Source: Acidobacteriota bacterium (GTDB lineage: Bacteria > Acidobacteriota > Blastocatellia > UBA7656). Taken from it: a DNA stretch of 64,000 nt. Each line of letters starts with the position of its first letter. Within the stretch, counting starts at the first letter, position 1. Positions 2,607 to 55,654 of the stretch are shown piece after piece. The notes under the pieces were generated by a model. It was not told the origin of the DNA. It was given only the letters and a program-made list of their open reading frames with translations, and did not search any database. The stretch spans positions 62,001 to 126,000 of the forward strand of contig JBFMDH010000009.1 of NCBI GenBank assembly GCA_040754075.1. Direction: 5' to 3'. Position numbers and translations under genes: made by a program.

Positions 2607-2685
2607 GTGCTTTGTACTTTGCGCTTAGTGTTTCGCGTTAATCAGGCTCGTGATGATCAGGTACGAGGCACAAAGTACAAAGCAC
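2607..2685. repeat. inverted repeat built from TTTGTAC-like heptamers
   Basis: GTGCTTTGTACTTTG at 2607-2621 is perfectly complementary to CAAAGTACAAAGCAC at 2671-2685. Both arms read as loose 7-base units (CTTTGTA, CTTTGCG, CTTAGTG against ACAAAGT, ACAAAGC). The left arm begins 6 bases after the sucD stop, and the right arm ends 9 bases before the ATG of the next gene. It fits the heptamer hairpins seen elsewhere in the window. Confidence 0.7.
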
Positions 2686-8369: not shown

Positions 8370-9881
8370 ATGCCGGAAGCGGTTCAATTTTTGAAAACTT
8401 TTCGCGCCCGCCTGGTGCTGTTGCTGGCGGCTTGTCTGGCGCTCACCATCGGCGTCGTGCTGGCGCTCGATTACTGGGCGCAACGGCGTATCAATGAAGA
8501 AATTGAAAAGCAGAGACAAAGTGTCGAGGGGGTGATTAACAATGGCTTTGGTGATTTAATGCAAGCCGTCAGCATCGCAACCGCAAGTTTGGGCAGCGAC
8601 AAATATCTTTATGAAACGATCTCACCCGATGAGATGCCCAAAACTGTCGAAGCCATCATTGTCGCCAATAGTTCCGGCAAAATTACTGATAGCTCCGTAG
8701 AAAAATTTATTGATGATGGCAAGACCATCACGGTTCCAGATCAAAGCCAGAAAATTTATGTTCTTTCCGGCGACCCGTTTGTCGGCGCAGTTAATAACCA
8801 GGGGTATGCAGAGAAAACCTATTATTACTCGACTGACACCGCCAACCTGGGATTGCATTGGATTGTGATTGTGATGAAGCAGGACGCCATCATCAGTCAA
8901 ATCAGCGCCGAAACCAACAAACTGGCAAACAGTAATCAGGAACTCTCGAATATACGGCAATGGCTGACGACCATCTTGTTGCTTTTTGCGCTGGCAATCG
9001 CGGTTGTTATCGGCTGGCAATTCACCCGTCCGATTCAGGAACTCGCAAGCGCCGCCCGCCGCGTCGCCGATAGCCAACTTGATTTTCGCGTCAACGTATT
9101 TCGCAATGATGAAGTGGGGCAACTTGCGGAAACCTTCAATGAAATGATTGACGGACTCAAACATAAACGCGAACTCGAAGAAAAGCTCAATCAGGCGGAA
9201 CGCGCAGCGGTCATCGGTCGGCTCACCCAATCGGTGGCGCATGAAATCCGCAATCCGCTCAATGTTATCAACCTTTCAATCGACCTGGTGCGCAATAAAT
9301 TTGCGCCCGCCGATGACCAGCAACGCGGGCAGTTCACGCGATTACTTTCTTCAATCAAAGATGAAATCGTCAGGCTCAATCGCATGGTGAGCGACCTGTT
9401 GAATTATGGTCGTCCGGCAAATCTCGCCGTGCATACTTTCGATATGCGTTCGCTCGTGGATGAAACAATTGCTTTGATTCGTCCGCAGGCTGACGATCAA
9501 AGTGTTGAAATTCAACTTGACGAAGATAACCTGCCTGCCGAAGTCAACGGCGACCGCGAAAAATTGAAATCCTGTTTATCGAATATTGCAATCAATGCGT
9601 TGCAGGCGATGCCATCGGGCGGCAGCCTGATGGCGAGCGTGCATAAAATGAACGGTCATGTTGAAGTCAAAATCGCCGATACCGGCACCGGCATCAGCGA
9701 AGAGAATTTAAATAAAATTTTTGAACCGTATTTTTCAACCAAACAGACGGGCTTCGGGTTGGGGCTTGCGGTGACCAAAAAAATTATCGAAGAACATCAA
9801 GGGACGATTGATGTGCAAAGCGAGATTGGACTCGGCACCACCTTCAGTGTGAAACTTGAAGCAGCGAAAGATAAGGACTGA
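8370..9881 (+). CDS. membrane sensor histidine kinase (NtrB/ZraS/AtoS type)
   Basis: A 503-residue kinase with one membrane segment at residues 12-34, a periplasmic sensor region of about 160 residues, a second membrane segment near 198-218, and HAMP (RPIQELASAARRVADSQLDF, then NDEVGQLAETFNEM). The HisKA domain has the phospho-accepting His in VAHEIRNPLN, and the ATPase domain shows NIAINALQAMP, DTGTGIS, FEPYFSTK and GFGLGLAV. It should phosphorylate the NtrC-type regulator encoded next. The last codons and the TGA stop (9879-9881) lie inside the first GGACTGA unit of a heptamer array, so the array sets the C-terminus. The signal sensed is unknown. Confidence 0.95.
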   Translation: MPEAVQFLKTFRARLVLLLAACLALTIGVVLALDYWAQRRINEEIEKQRQSVEGVINNGFGDLMQAVSIATASLGSDKYLYETISPDEMPKTVEAIIVANSSGKITDSSVEKFIDDGKTITVPDQSQKIYVLSGDPFVGAVNNQGYAEKTYYYSTDTANLGLHWIVIVMKQDAIISQISAETNKLANSNQELSNIRQWLTTILLLFALAIAVVIGWQFTRPIQELASAARRVADSQLDFRVNVFRNDEVGQLAETFNEMIDGLKHKRELEEKLNQAERAAVIGRLTQSVAHEIRNPLNVINLSIDLVRNKFAPADDQQRGQFTRLLSSIKDEIVRLNRMVSDLLNYGRPANLAVHTFDMRSLVDETIALIRPQADDQSVEIQLDEDNLPAEVNGDREKLKSCLSNIAINALQAMPSGGSLMASVHKMNGHVEVKIADTGTGISEENLNKIFEPYFSTKQTGFGLGLAVTKKIIEEHQGTIDVQSEIGLGTTFSVKLEAAKDKD

Positions 9882-9979
9882 GGACTGAGGACTCAGGACT
9901 GAGCGGAAAATAAATTTTCGGACGAGGTTTCATTGAGGATGGATCAAGCGATTACTCAGTCCTCAGCCCTCAGTCCTCA
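9875..9979. repeat. GGACTGA heptamer array with inverted partner
   Basis: Four contiguous units at 9875-9902 (GGACTGA, GGACTGA, GGACTCA, GGACTGA) face three complementary units at 9956-9976 (TCAGTCC, TCAGCCC, TCAGTCC) plus TCA. The spacer is 53 bases. It fills the gap between the kinase and its response regulator; the first unit contains the kinase stop codon. A transcript would fold into a long stem that can pair in several 7-base registers. Confidence 0.9.
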
Positions 9980-9994
9980 TTACTGGAGAAGGGA

Positions 9995-24273: not shown

Positions 24274-24963
24274 TTATGACGGGAAAATAAGACTTTTTTT
24301 CGCTTTTTCGTAATCTTCGGGCGTGTTCACATTCTCAAAAAACAACTCGGCATTCGCTAAATCTTCGAGTTCAGCAAACCTAACTCGTCGGGTATTGATG
24401 CGCTCAAAAAGCTCGCTCACTTTACGCTCGCCGCTTTCAATCAACTGGGTGACCGCGGGTAAAGCCGCCCTCGCATACAGCGCACAAAGTGGTTCAAGCC
24501 GACCTTTCGCATCAAGTGGCACAACCGCCATAGGCTTTAAATCTGCACTGTTGAGTCTGGCGTCAGGAGTCAGGAGTCTGGGGTCTGAGGAGGCAAAAGT
24601 TGATTCATCATTTTGGCAGGCATCTTCTTCAATTGCGATGCGGATTAAAAATTTAAACAATTCCCAAGTCACAAAAGGCATATCGCAACCGACCAGCATC
24701 ACCCATTCGGTCGGACTGTTTGCAAGCGCCGCGCGAATGGCTTCAAGCGGTCCGACATCGGTGTTGACATCGGCAAAAACCGGCAAGCCCAAACGCCGGT
24801 ATTCCTCAGCGTTGGCAATGATGTTGAGGTTTGCGGTGACAGGTTTTAAAGCGTCAATGACTCTTGAAATCATCGGTCGCCCATCAAGTTCAAGCCAGGC
24901 TTTGTCGCGCCCCATGCGTGAACTGCGCCCGCCCGCTGTGATAAATCCGCTAATCGCTTTCAT
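24274..24963 (-). CDS. mobA: molybdenum cofactor guanylyltransferase
   Basis: A 229-residue nucleotidyltransferase that attaches GMP to molybdopterin to make the bis-MGD type cofactor. The N-terminal signature ITAGGRSSRMGRDKAWLELD binds GTP, and VGCDMPFVT gives the metal-binding Asp. RLEPLCALYAR is the late family motif. Residues about 120-150 are an unusual insertion between the DMPF region and MAVVPLDAKG. Part of it is translated from a five-unit heptamer array (24553-24587). The enzyme is probably active because the motifs around the insertion are intact. No other molybdenum genes are in the window. Confidence 0.92.
   Translation of the reverse strand: MKAISGFITAGGRSSRMGRDKAWLELDGRPMISRVIDALKPVTANLNIIANAEEYRRLGLPVFADVNTDVGPLEAIRAALANSPTEWVMLVGCDMPFVTWELFKFLIRIAIEEDACQNDESTFASSDPRLLTPDARLNSADLKPMAVVPLDAKGRLEPLCALYARAALPAVTQLIESGERKVSELFERINTRRVRFAELEDLANAELFFENVNTPEDYEKAKKSLIFPS
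24553..24587. repeat. GAGTCWG heptamer array inside mobA
   Basis: Five contiguous 7-base units read on the plus strand: GAGTCTG, GCGTCAG, GAGTCAG, GAGTCTG, GGGTCTG. No complementary array is nearby. They lie within mobA coding sequence, read on the opposite strand, and encode part of a segment that other MobA proteins lack. Confidence 0.85.
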
Positions 24964-25129: not shown

Positions 25130-25821
<692 letters not shown>

Positions 25822-42447: not shown

Positions 42448-42475
42448 AAAAGGCAAAAGGCAAAAGGCAAAAGGC
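42448..42475. repeat. AAAAGGC heptamer array (four perfect units)
   Basis: Four exact copies of AAAAGGC start 3 bases after the ATPase stop codon. No complementary array is seen within the gap. It is the only one of the arrays with pure A/G/C words. The gap then continues with the palindromic units at 42493-42599. Confidence 0.88.
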
Positions 42476-42492
42476 AAAAATTGAAAGTAGAA

Positions 42493-44878: not shown

Positions 44879-44962
44879 AAACCGCAAAGGACATAGAGGC
44901 TTCGCAGAGAAGATTTAAATCAATCTGCGCCCTCTGCAAAGCCTCTATGTCCTTTGCGGTTT
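44879..44962. terminator. 31-base-pair hairpin after galM
   Basis: Arms at 44879-44909 and 44932-44962 match over 31 positions with one mismatch, around a 22-base loop. Each arm is rich in words like CGCAAAGGACATAGAGG. It lies 18 bases after the galM stop and ahead of the convergent esterase gene, so it may end transcription both ways. Its length exceeds an ordinary terminator, and its words resemble the repeat at 20913-21012. Confidence 0.65.
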
Positions 44963-47372: not shown

Positions 47373-47393
47373 GACTCCAGACTCCAGACTCCA
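47373..47393. repeat. GACTCCA heptamer array (three perfect units)
   Basis: Three exact GACTCCA units, plus a partial fourth (GACTG), lie 32 bases after the dipeptidase stop and 11 bases before the truncated ABC gene start. No complementary array is visible in the gap. Confidence 0.88.
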
Positions 47394-47404
47394 GACTGTT
47401 TTTT

Positions 47405-51893: not shown

Positions 51894-52077
51894 TTGCGAA
51901 TTGCGGATTTTGCAAAATGGTCGTTTCTGTTATAGATTGCCCGCACTTTTGCGCGCAAAGTCAGTAGCCCTGGCATCAGCGCGGGCGTTTGAAAAAACGT
52001 AAGCCACATTACTTTACTTGTTACTTCACCTGGCCCTCCCTTATGGTCGGGCTACTGATGGTATTTAGGAGGAGATT

Positions 52078-52905
52078 ATGGAACAACCGGAAAATCAAAT
52101 TGAAGCTGTACCAACTTACAGTGCGCCAGTTGCGCCGCAACCAGAAGTACAGCCCGAAGAGCCTGCACAGATGAACTGGTTTCAGCGTCTCATCGGGGTG
52201 CTGCTTTCACCTACGGAAACCTTCACAGACGTCAACCGCAAGCCGACAATTATTGCGCCGATGATTATCGTGATGGCGCTGGTCATCGTTACGATTGGCC
52301 TCACGAACTGGAAGCTTGGCCCCTTTATGGATGACATCATGCGGGCGCAAATTAAAAAACAACTTGAGCGGCAAAACGTGACCTTGACCGAAGAGCAGAT
52401 GGCGCAACAGATGACCCTTGCTAGAACGATTAACAAATTTATGCCCTTTATTGGCGCGGCTTTTGTGCCGATTATCTATCTCATCATTGCCGGACTCTTT
52501 GCATTAGGCATGATGATGATTCAAGCCAAAGCCACCTTCAAAAAAATCTACTCGGTGGTGCTGTGGACATTTGCAGGACTTGGCATCGTCGGCAATGCAA
52601 TTTACTGGGGCGTGTTGTTTATGAAGGATGAAGAGGCATTGCGGGCGATGGATGTTCAAGACCCGACCGCAGGGGTGCCGACAAACCTGGCGGTGTTTCT
52701 CGATGCCGGAACCTCGCCTGCAATCAAAGCCCTCGCCGGTTCGATGGATATCATCTCTTTCTGGACAATTGCCGTGCTGTCAATCGGGCTTGCAGCAATC
52801 GCCGGTTCAAAGAAAATCAAACCCGGAAAGACGGCGATGATTGTTATCGCTTTCTGGGCGATTTATGTAATTGGTCGAATGGGATTGGCTGCTTTGCGTG
52901 GGTAG
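52078..52905 (+). CDS. Yip1-domain membrane protein
   Basis: A 275-residue inner-membrane protein. The N-terminus is a Pro/Glu/Gln-rich cytoplasmic region (residues 1-35). NWFQRLIGVLLSPTETFTDV is the Yip1-domain start. Five or so hydrophobic segments follow (for example MIIVMALVIVTIGLTNW, AFVPIIYLIIAGLFALG and SIGLAAIAGS). Bacterial Yip1 proteins have no settled function. The ATG at 52078 follows TTAGGAGGAGATT, a strong ribosome-binding site. It stands alone and converges with the next gene. Confidence 0.85.
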   Translation: MEQPENQIEAVPTYSAPVAPQPEVQPEEPAQMNWFQRLIGVLLSPTETFTDVNRKPTIIAPMIIVMALVIVTIGLTNWKLGPFMDDIMRAQIKKQLERQNVTLTEEQMAQQMTLARTINKFMPFIGAAFVPIIYLIIAGLFALGMMMIQAKATFKKIYSVVLWTFAGLGIVGNAIYWGVLFMKDEEALRAMDVQDPTAGVPTNLAVFLDAGTSPAIKALAGSMDIISFWTIAVLSIGLAAIAGSKKIKPGKTAMIVIAFWAIYVIGRMGLAALRG

Positions 52906-52921: not shown

Positions 52922-52970
52922 TCTACAGAAGTGGTTGAAATCTGGCAATGATTTTAACCACTTCTGTAGA
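52922..52970. terminator. 21-base-pair hairpin between convergent genes
   Basis: Arms 52922-52942 and 52950-52970 match over 21 positions with a single G-T pair, and the loop is 7 bases. Short T-runs follow on the plus side. It sits between the Yip1 gene (end 52905) and the convergent permease (end 53000), so a bidirectional terminator is likely. Confidence 0.75.
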
Positions 52971-54259: not shown

Positions 54260-54273
54260 ATTTAAAGTAATGA

Positions 54274-54428
54274 GGACTGAGGACTGAGGACTGAGTTGCA
54301 AAAAGGATGAAGTCTGAAGGCAGGACGATGAACTACGGTTTTTAATTTTGATGCTTCTTGTTTATCCTTCATCGTTCATCCTTCATCGTTTCAGGAAAAC
54401 TCAGTCCTCAATCCTCAGAACTCAGTCC
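54274..54428. repeat. nested heptamer hairpin (GGACTGA outside, GATGAAG-type inside)
   Basis: Outer arms: three GGACTGA at 54274-54294 and four TCAGTCC-type units at 54401-54428 (TCAGTCC, TCAATCC, TCAGAAC, TCAGTCC), 106 bases apart, twice the 53-base spacer of the 9875 and 25711 elements. Inner arms: GGATGAA, GTCTGAA, GGCAGGA, CGATGAA (54305-54332) against ATCCTTC, ATCGTTC, ATCCTTC, ATCGTTT (54364-54391). It fills the gap of the two permease genes on the minus strand; the TAG stop of the upstream one abuts the outer array. Confidence 0.9.
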
Positions 54429-55654
54429 TAATCTGCCCGCAGCGCCGTAATCGGGTCGAGTTTGGCGGCGCGGTTCGCCGGATAAATTCCGAAAAACAGA
54501 CCCGTGAGCGTAGAAACAATGATAGCGATAAATGGTGCCCAGAAGGGAATGGCGACCGGAACCGGCAAAAATTTTCCGAGTATGGTCATTACCGTAATTG
54601 CCATCAACAATCCGACAATGCCGCCCAACAATGACAACATCGAAGATTCAACTAAAAATTGCACCAGGATGTCGCGTCGCGTCGCGCCGAGCGATTTGCG
54701 TATGCCGATCTCTTTGGTGCGTTCCGTAACCGTCGCCAGCATGATGTTCATAATCACGATGCCGCCAATGACCAGCGAAATGCCGACTACAGGAAAAGCC
54801 ACGGAGGCTACGGTTTTGGTAATCGAGCCGAACATTTGTTCGGTAGTTTCATCGGTGACCACCGAAAAATCATCCGGTTGATGGAAATCCAGTTTATGAC
54901 GCGAACGCAAAATGACGCGCACCTGATCCTGGACATCCGAAGACGGCACATTATCGTGCCCGCGAATCACAAACGTCAGTGAACGACGGCTGCCAAACAC
55001 TTTCAAATAGGTGCCAATCGGAATGTGTACGAAATTATCTTGAGAAAAACCGAGCACCGTGCCGATGGCTTTGGCGACGCCGATAACCGTATAGGTATAG
55101 CGCCCGATTTTAATCTCTTTGCCTATCGGGTCTTCGGTTGGAAAAAGTTTGGTGGCGACCTCTGCGCCGATATAAGCGACAAATCTTCGCGATTCATCAT
55201 CGGCTTCGCTGATATAACGACCCTGCACGACTTCAACATTGGTAACAAAAACCACATTGGGCGTGACCCCTTGAATGCCGACGCCTTCAACGGCGTTGTT
55301 GCCATATTTGACGATTTGCGAACTGCCGTCCTGTGCGGCGATGTTATCGGCAAGTGTTACATTTTCACGAAGCGCGTAAAGGTCATCCATTTTGAGGTCG
55401 GGATTTTTACGCATGGCTTCCATGAATTTATCGAAATCACCGAAATTCATGGCGGCTTTTTGAATGCGAAAAACTCCTGAACCGAGGGTGGCGATTTTTT
55501 CTTTGATGTAAACGTTTGCGCCTTCGATGACGGTTGCCACTGCGGTGACGACAAACACTCCGATGATGACGCCGAGCAGAGTGAGAAAAGCTCGCAATTT
55601 ATGAGCGAGAATCGAAGATAAGGCAATGGCAGCGGCTTCAATAATTTTATTCAT
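54428..55654 (-). CDS. MacB-like ABC transporter permease (first of a tandem pair)
   Basis: A 408-residue permease homologous to the downstream gene. It starts with an N-terminal helix (SSILAHKLRAFLTLLGVIIG), has a periplasmic core to about residue 265, and three C-terminal helices containing TERTKEIGIRKSLGATRRDI, ending KLDPITALRAD. The ATG at 55654 is preferred; there is no strong ribosome-binding site. Both tandem genes lack an ATPase domain. Transcription is opposite to dxr, with a shared 150-base promoter region. The substrate is unknown; in this family antibiotics, peptides or lipoproteins are possible. Confidence 0.9.
   Translation of the reverse strand: MNKIIEAAAIALSSILAHKLRAFLTLLGVIIGVFVVTAVATVIEGANVYIKEKIATLGSGVFRIQKAAMNFGDFDKFMEAMRKNPDLKMDDLYALRENVTLADNIAAQDGSSQIVKYGNNAVEGVGIQGVTPNVVFVTNVEVVQGRYISEADDESRRFVAYIGAEVATKLFPTEDPIGKEIKIGRYTYTVIGVAKAIGTVLGFSQDNFVHIPIGTYLKVFGSRRSLTFVIRGHDNVPSSDVQDQVRVILRSRHKLDFHQPDDFSVVTDETTEQMFGSITKTVASVAFPVVGISLVIGGIVIMNIMLATVTERTKEIGIRKSLGATRRDILVQFLVESSMLSLLGGIVGLLMAITVMTILGKFLPVPVAIPFWAPFIAIIVSTLTGLFFGIYPANRAAKLDPITALRAD

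Follow-up and report, generated by a model that had tools for sequence, protein, structure and literature searches.

Heptad hairpins in the operon gaps of Blastocatellia: dispersal of at least one family and probable turnover of repeat words

The very small mobile repeats (SDR) of Nostoc punctiforme, 21-27 nt in length, are often embedded in heptamer arrays, and a heptanucleotide hairpin (P6b) in the Nostoc tRNA-Leu intron was reportedly described by Costa et al. in 2002. The preference of bacterial tandem repeats for a unit of 7 is presented as an open question in the papers excerpted here; PMC4679880 and PMC4692102 both attribute to Mrazek et al. 2007 the proposal that polymerase slippage favours 7-nt units. 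For the GGGAATC heptamers of Xanthomonas, the excerpted text of PMC4692102 gives 70 and 75 cases of inverted array pairs, mostly between genes of the same direction and at a mean distance of 28 nt from the ORF on their 5' side. An excess of heptamers and their pairing are already published, and the pairing, which the initial annotation of the DNA studied here set beside the heptanucleotide repeats known in filamentous cyanobacteria, is not peculiar to this genome, being on record for Xanthomonas (PMC4692102, in part) and for the Nostoc tRNA-Leu intron (PMC3488679, in part). Among the matches listed from the open-licence literature, no report was found of heptad hairpins in Acidobacteriota, of nested heptad elements, or of word change at orthologous gaps.

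The window, as the whole stretch of 64 kb analysed here is called, has 50% GC and belongs to a 7.58-Mb genome of 68 contigs from Blastocatellia (Acidobacteriota). Among named relatives, its NtrC protein matches records of Blastocatellia and other Acidobacteria best, and a draw of 28 relatives includes none of its own genus; to judge by contig counts most relatives are draft assemblies, in which mis-assembly of hairpins is possible. ORF calls and start codons are mechanical throughout. All eight of the arrays named in the initial annotation are present (Table 1), and the complementary partner that several were said to have downstream was recovered for five of the eight by an inverted-repeat search of the window. 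The best reverse-complement identity within 400 bp is 0.47 for the array at 42448 and 0.56 for that at 47373, and the array at 24553 has no partner among the best 25 of 27 inverted repeats in the window. Two of the hairpins fit closely between genes: the TGA stop of the histidine kinase gene lies inside the 9874 array, the partner of which ends ten bases before the start of the NtrC-type gene, and the GTAGGCA array starts within the stop codon of the preceding gene (25709-25711), its partner stopping two bases before the next start (25824). Placement at a gene junction is not established at 24553, where the ORF of the stretch has no Pfam match. The window also contains two further hairpins, a perfect-looking non-heptad one at 44879-44962 (31-nt arms, 97% complementary, 22-nt loop) and one at 52922-52970 (21-nt arms, 95% complementary, 7-nt loop), 3' of a gene ending at 52905.

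Table 1. Heptad arrays and hairpins of the window, with period-7 calls of TRF and arms from the inverted-repeat search.
Feature	Span	Strand	TRF period-7 calls	Paired arms	Context
Degenerate heptad hairpin, TTTGTAC-like	2607..2685	.	2668-2687 (right arm alone)	2607-2629/2663-2685	3' of CoA-ligase-type gene ending 2600
GGACTGA hairpin	9874..9984	.	9874-9903; 9955-9979	9874-9903/9955-9984	Fills gap between histidine kinase gene and NtrC-type regulator gene (start 9995)
Imperfect GAGTCAG/GAGTCTG array, no complementary partner found	24553..24587	.	24553-24587 (82% matches)		
GTAGGCA hairpin	25710..25821	.	25710-25740; 25791-25821	25710-25739/25791-25820	Between phosphoribosyltransferase-domain gene and tRNA pseudouridine synthase gene (start 25824)
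AAAAGGC array, unpaired	42448..42479	.	42448-42479		Directly 3' of ABC-transporter-type gene ending 42444
GACTCCA array, unpaired	47373..47397	.	47373-47397		3' of membrane dipeptidase gene ending 47340
Nested hairpin, outer GGACTGA arms	54266..54429	.	54271-54295; 54360-54390	54266-54297/54398-54429	Copy of dispersed family; a minus-strand MacB/FtsX-type gene on either side
Inner GATGAAG/GATGAAC arms of the same nested hairpin	54303..54383	.		54303-54320/54366-54383	

Exact arrays, defined by at least 12 matched positions and counted per period, number six at period 7 in the window, none at period 6 and one at period 8, and in its non-coding DNA lag 7 reaches z 4.3, as against 0.7 at lag 6, -0.4 at lag 8 and 2.5 at lag 12. 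Across 864 kb of the same genome (window included), period 7 accounts for 38 exact arrays, period 8 for 13, period 9 for 5, period 14 for 14 and periods 4-6 for none. Period 7 is thus far more frequent than periods 6 and 8, both in this genome and in the ribosomal-operon gaps described below, and tandem 7-nt units exceed the other unit lengths in all three settings (window, genome and operon gaps), as is characteristic of heptanucleotide repeats. A reverse-complement partner (at least 85% identity, within 400 bp) accompanies 22 of the 38 period-7 arrays, where control searches with the reversed, complemented and direct sequence gave 1, 2 and 2; the other 16 arrays lack a partner. Since 5 of the 13 period-8 arrays are also paired, pairing is not exclusive to period 7. 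The GGACTGA array read backwards, used as a control, proved frequent in the genome as well (16 matches vs 22 for GGACTGAGGACTGA), because AGTCAGG, which resembles the backwards word, is itself an array word here. Among eight relatives sampled for exact arrays at 100 kb each, the period-7 excess is clear in G008 (13 arrays) and G016 (9) and small in G001 (4) and G004 (2), and G002, G007, G017 and G024 have zero or one array per sample. Of 80 NtrC loci from many phyla, 71 were usable and lag 7 was the highest of lags 3-12 in 4 alone, two of them from Blastocatellia; as these loci are short, the survey says little beyond that the period is not general.

The 31 consecutive gaps of the S10/spc/alpha region allow a comparison between genomes. 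In 40 Blastocatellia genomes, chosen partly for SbcD contrasts and not randomly, heptad periodicity marks 248 of the 651 gaps that are 40 bp or longer, vs 16 in shuffles, and lags 4-6 and 8-12 give 9-23 of the same gaps. A strong inverted repeat is present in 156 of the 248 heptad gaps (0 when shuffled) and absent from 92; these 156 gaps, like the 22 paired arrays of the 38 in the genome, hold paired-heptamer hairpins of the kind found in Xanthomonas and Nostoc P6b. Seven genomes of the window's own family supply 140 gaps that are 40 bp or longer, and in these z exceeds 2 at lags 7, 14 and 21 alone (61.5, 29.6 and 15.2), the values for lags 6 and 8 being 0.7 and 0.5. The 232 such gaps of 13 other genomes give z 21.7 at lag 7, about 10 at lags 14 and 21, and 5.5 at lag 6. 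Heptad gaps make up 69 of the 140 and 50 of the 232, respectively. The median ribosomal-operon hairpin has arms of 26 bp and a loop of 22 bp, its first arm beginning 4 bp after the stop codon and its second ending 12 bp before the next start.

Several further repeats were encountered in these operons. Units of 9 bp, AGTCTAGCC-like and by eye similarly paired, occur in two operon gaps of the window's own genome (L333 544-646 and 3989-4075), and a similar 9-bp array is present in G024. Two non-heptad motifs recur in several genomes of the family, GCTGAAG...CATCAGC in the rplX-rplE gap (L333 6721-6797) and GCTGAAGTGACG...CAATCAGC in the rplF-rplR gap (L333 8878-9019); a ribosomal-protein leader RNA is a possible identity for both, and Rfam gave no match in L333 or L334. 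In the rpsK-rpsD gap of five genomes of genus g28 (L365, L373, L375, L376 and L377), CCTAAAGGATGAAGGG...CCTGTAAACTTTTCCGTC is conserved beside changing heptad hairpins. On the minus strand of L302 (461-727), a mechanical ORF is produced by the heptad hairpin of the rplW-rplB gap, and ORFs of this origin may be annotated as false proteins; among the matches listed from the literature, no paper had published translated heptad words as peptides.

The GGACTGAGGACTGA sites, 22 in the genome, are arms of hairpins, several of them nested with GGACTGA outside and GATGAA or TATGAA inside. A search of the genome with one nested element returned at least 75 matching pieces; 40 of the 84 first-look candidates were scored, and the 40 stretches parsed gave 38 copies, one being too low in score and one a repeat of a copy already counted. 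Two copies on different contigs and in opposite orientation are 92% identical over the element, and several copies have loops in common, which face either way with respect to the arms. Beside the loop, 63 of 76 arms follow a four-heptad scheme, and the arms that deviate from it do so, by eye, by whole heptads. The heptad vocabulary of the arms is small (ACGATGA, AGTATGA, AGTAGGA, AGGCGGA, AGGATGA and others): the 44 distinct arms have 7, 14, 13 and 10 words at the four heptad positions, where column shuffling gives means of 12.6, 18.2, 20.9 and 11.5 (minima 10, 15, 15 and 9), so that the count lies under the shuffled minimum at three positions and, at the fourth, is 10 against 9. Kinship among the copies may contribute to this restriction. 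By eye, a second array of TCAGGAT or GGACTGA type flanks all but about eight of the 38 copies. Between co-directional genes lie 34 of the 38; of the other four, divergent gaps hold two and a convergent gap one, and the last is unclassed. The background co-directional share, from simple ORF calls, is 430 of 594 gaps, or 57,651 of 88,179 bp. The copies are dispersed, palindromic and non-coding within the 70-300 bp of a miniature inverted-repeat transposable element (MITE), and the flanks of eight copies without full outer arms showed, by eye, no consistent target-site duplication.

Beyond this genome the core element gives weaker matches or none. Searches of 14 genome entries, five of them apparently repeats of the same genomes, gave weaker matches in G001 (7), G004 (1), G006 (2), G008 (2) and G016 (2) and none in G002, G003, G005 and G007. 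Short pieces matched 26 plasmid records, the best match (E 5e-3) falling within a Candidatus Chlorohelix methylase gene, and a heptad array found no match in the plasmid records searched, where simple repeats were possibly filtered. Clustered arrays of TCAGGAT, TCAGAAG and GGACTGA type, seemingly in or beside a reading frame, were seen in the own genome at L008 (region C6:181992-182019).

Orthologous gaps would always have carried the same arrays with the same word had these been ancestral and static, and they mostly carry different words, with some gaps empty. By eye, the histidine kinase-NtrC gap of relatives holds different inverted repeats or is short, and the rplB-rpsS gap, with the word GGACTGA in the window's own genome, has heptad hairpins of other words in G001, G003, G005, G006, G011, G016 and G019 and is reduced to 2-14 bp in six genomes (one genome was unparsed and one is a contig fragment). 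Dominant words were compared over 236 gaps in 31 genomes (Table 2). The same-gap and different-gap counts indicate that a gap keeps its word by inheritance, that this agreement declines with distance, and that gaps of one genome or genus have words in common; sharing between different gaps is about ten times commoner within a genome than between families. The earlier statement that the arrays are not simple slippage needs qualification, in that slippage may act as a remodeller; many arrays, moreover, are inherited rather than newly formed, as the 49 of 145 same-gap, same-genus pairs within one mismatch attest.

Table 2. Pairs of gaps sharing the dominant heptad word, by relationship of the genomes.
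Comparison	Pairs	Identical word	Within one mismatch
Same gap, same genus	145	17	49
Same gap, same family	439	14	74
Same gap, other families	605	4	31
Different gaps, within genome	1192	60	154
Different gaps, within genus	2549	95	313
Different gaps, within family	8320	83	591
Different gaps, between families	14480	71	523

Of the 31 gaps compared across the six genomes of genus g28, 15 contrast a filled state in one species with a short one in another, a contrast that comes largely from one species, G111, which is mostly the short one; the words differ by three or more mismatches in 15 gaps and by no more than one in 15. Such contrasts between filled and short are rarer in the five other genera compared (g5 2/21, g3 1/25, g14 2/31, g11 0/31, g31 2/21). 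Indels between homologous elements of congeners are multiples of 7 in 15 of 70 cases, vs 5 of 29 in non-heptad gaps under the stricter alignment. As this is not clearly a bias to multiples of 7, any remodelling in heptad steps is read from words and arms rather than from events.

The explanation preferred here, to which about an even chance is given, is that the hairpins are non-autonomous palindromic elements with heptad stems, of which families spread and replace one another while the stems are remodelled in 7-bp units. The paired arrays would be members of elements of about 80-165 bp, their stems composed of tandem 7-bp units, and several families, each with its own word, would coexist within one genome. 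At least one family has spread by copying of the whole hairpin to unlinked gaps, as the arms and loops common to dispersed copies show, and in the operons examined the elements lie between a stop codon and the start region of the following gene. Over time one family may be replaced by another or lost, which would leave orthologous gaps with different words or with nothing, the pattern observed. The stems, for their part, may be remodelled in whole heptads through slippage at the DNA level and arm-templated (fold-back) copying, and the latter would hold the arms complementary while words drift; complementary change in both arms points either to such copying or to selection acting on the hairpin. 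Against the explanation, the searches turned up neither a mover nor a target-site duplication, and no empty site exact to the base; the indel lengths, the fourth heptad position, the unpaired heptad gaps and arrays, the paired period-8 arrays, the weight of G111 in the filled-or-short contrast and the rarity of that contrast in other genera count against it as well. What the initial annotation had proposed, a family of hairpins alike in period and placement but different in word, is borne out for operon gaps, and the dispersed copies show spread through the genome for at least one of them; of the common mechanism that it invoked for making or spreading 7-mers, the spreading stands for at least one family and a dedicated maker of 7-mers is not established.

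A permissive factor may also be at work, perhaps, although the balance of the evidence tilts against it. SbcCD removes hairpins in E. coli, according to the excerpted text of PMC3733652, and its loss would let hairpins persist, which complements the spreading of elements and does not replace it. Of the 147 genomes of the class, only 14 have an SbcD that passes the curated cut-off, the window's own genome not being among them, and the median heptad-gap fraction is 0.10 in 11 genomes with SbcD vs 0.31 in 29 others (Mann-Whitney p 0.008, not corrected for kinship). In genus g28, SbcD with an adjacent SbcC match is present in G111 alone, which has heptads in 4 of 31 gaps and a median gap of 16 bp, where the five congeners (L373-L377, as against L365 for G111) have 13-19 heptad gaps of 23-29 and median gaps of 79-100 bp; in genus g3, G002 has 1 of 30 and G005 5 of 27. 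However, G094 has adjacent sbcC and sbcD matches yet is heptad-rich (15 of 17 gaps of at least 40 bp), the count in its SbcD-less congener G063 being 9 of 14, and the heptad share of G111 is itself not low (4 of 8) once gaps of at least 40 bp are considered. G010 combines SbcD with a high lag-7 excess (0.198), in few gaps, whereas G007, G009 and G020 are SbcD-less yet heptad-poor; families f4, f5 and f8 show no clear SbcD contrast, and SbcC had no match at cut-off in the 20 genomes searched. The association is best regarded as a lead. Loss of SbcCD as the whole explanation was considered and rejected on these mixed results: the congeners of two genera agree with the association, whereas G094 does not and three families show no clear contrast.

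That the hairpins are of local origin only, slippage favouring 7-nt units and fold-back copying turning the arrays into hairpins without movement between loci, is rather unlikely. It would accord with the heptamer excess reported for many bacterial genomes (PMC4679880 and PMC4692102, both in excerpt), with several arrays being unpaired, and with the finding that different gaps of one genome mostly differ in word (60 identical in 1192 pairs), but arms and loops common to copies on unlinked contigs, and word sharing about ten times higher within a genome than between families, speak against it and in favour of spreading elements.

Two further readings are distinctly unlikely. By the first, a writer at the DNA level, whether transposase, polymerase or reverse transcriptase, would work in 7-nt steps, copying from arm to arm and placing hairpins into new gaps, with loss of SbcCD letting it run; stems would then change as series of 7-nt words, and the writer would land regularly in operon gaps. 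By the second, the hairpins would function as RNA, kept by selection to protect, cut or uncouple neighbouring messages while words drift under a pairing constraint. The position inside operons shortly after stop codons would suit such a role, as would the folding of 60 of 69 heptad gaps in the own family and 36 of 50 in other families better than shuffles (z < -2). Selection at the RNA level should tolerate G-U pairs, however, and the missing excess of these counts against it: sense-strand mispairs in the operon gaps are 110 G-U vs 138 A-C (p 0.09), and those of the own core family 85 G-U vs 76 A-C. The same gaps are, moreover, short in related genomes, and Rfam matched no family in the window, L333, L334, L213, L222, L285 or L345, except one tRNA.

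It is very improbable, finally, that the hairpins are REPINs moved by a RAYT (Y1) transposase, a reading already disfavoured: Y1 transposase domains do occur in 25 of 29 genomes, the own genome having five such domains, and at one of four loci a heptad hairpin of GAGTCTG/GACTCCA type lies about 1.2 kb from the Y1 match (L280 5391-5531), but one such hairpin per four 4.5-kb stretches is about what the array density of the genome predicts, the palindromes on both sides of the Y1 gene in L281 are a different, GTAG-type sequence, and Y1 counts show by eye no agreement with heptad richness (13 in heptad-poor G024, 6 in rich G016). At four of the five own Y1 loci, no heptad palindrome flanking the Y1 gene was found, and by inspection the GGACTGA arms and the core copies have neither a GTAG nor a CGTC tag at the stem base; the word GTAGGCA does include GTAG, whether or not by chance. 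A separate palindrome of the window, GTAGCCC...GGGCTAC at 51961-52058, resembles by eye those at L281 3991-4068 and 4665-4740, either side of a Y1 match, and probably forms with that locus a REP/RAYT pair distinct from the heptads.

The same operon gaps, filled or empty, can be read in dozens of genomes, so that gain, loss and word change become measurable in a conserved setting, and with them the roles of slippage, movement and hairpin nucleases. Caution is advised in reading gap hairpins of these genomes as terminators or regulatory RNA, and in accepting gene calls on repeated words.

Set beside the known systems, the hairpins of Blastocatellia share one or another feature with each. In the SDR of Nostoc punctiforme, which PMC3116915 names, the heptads themselves are not the element, unlike here. 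The degenerate heptads of the Nostoc tRNA-Leu intron pair into one hairpin, as here, vary in copy number, as they may here too, and, from the excerpts of PMC3488679, belong to one locus, whereas the Blastocatellia hairpins are dispersed in operon gaps. The MITEs RUP, NEMIS and ERIC, named in PMC3733652, are likewise palindromes of 70-300 bp that lie between genes, and they are transcribed with their neighbours, as the heptad elements may be; the heptad elements differ in that no target-site duplication was seen in the flanks of eight copies. REPINs and GTAG-type REPs (PMC3116915 and PMC3733652, in excerpt) are, as here, palindromic doublets scattered between genes and regarded as mobile DNA of a non-autonomous kind; they have no heptad period, and the palindrome flanking the RAYT of this genome is a different sequence. 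The TAACTGA repeats of Beggiatoaceae, Cyanobacteria and Bacteroidetes are also intergenic heptamer direct repeats and use mainly a single word. The genome covered by the excerpted text of PMC4679880 has 169 direct sets and one indirect repeat, situated before start codons, where the Blastocatellia arrays are paired hairpins with many words. The GGGAATC repeats of Xanthomonas and the GGGGA(C/T)T repeats of Nostoc, as far as the excerpts of PMC4692102 extend, are intergenic heptamer arrays too, with one G-rich word per lineage and an interest in quadruplexes; unlike them, the Blastocatellia genomes carry many words each, nested elements with common loops, and words that change at orthologous gaps.
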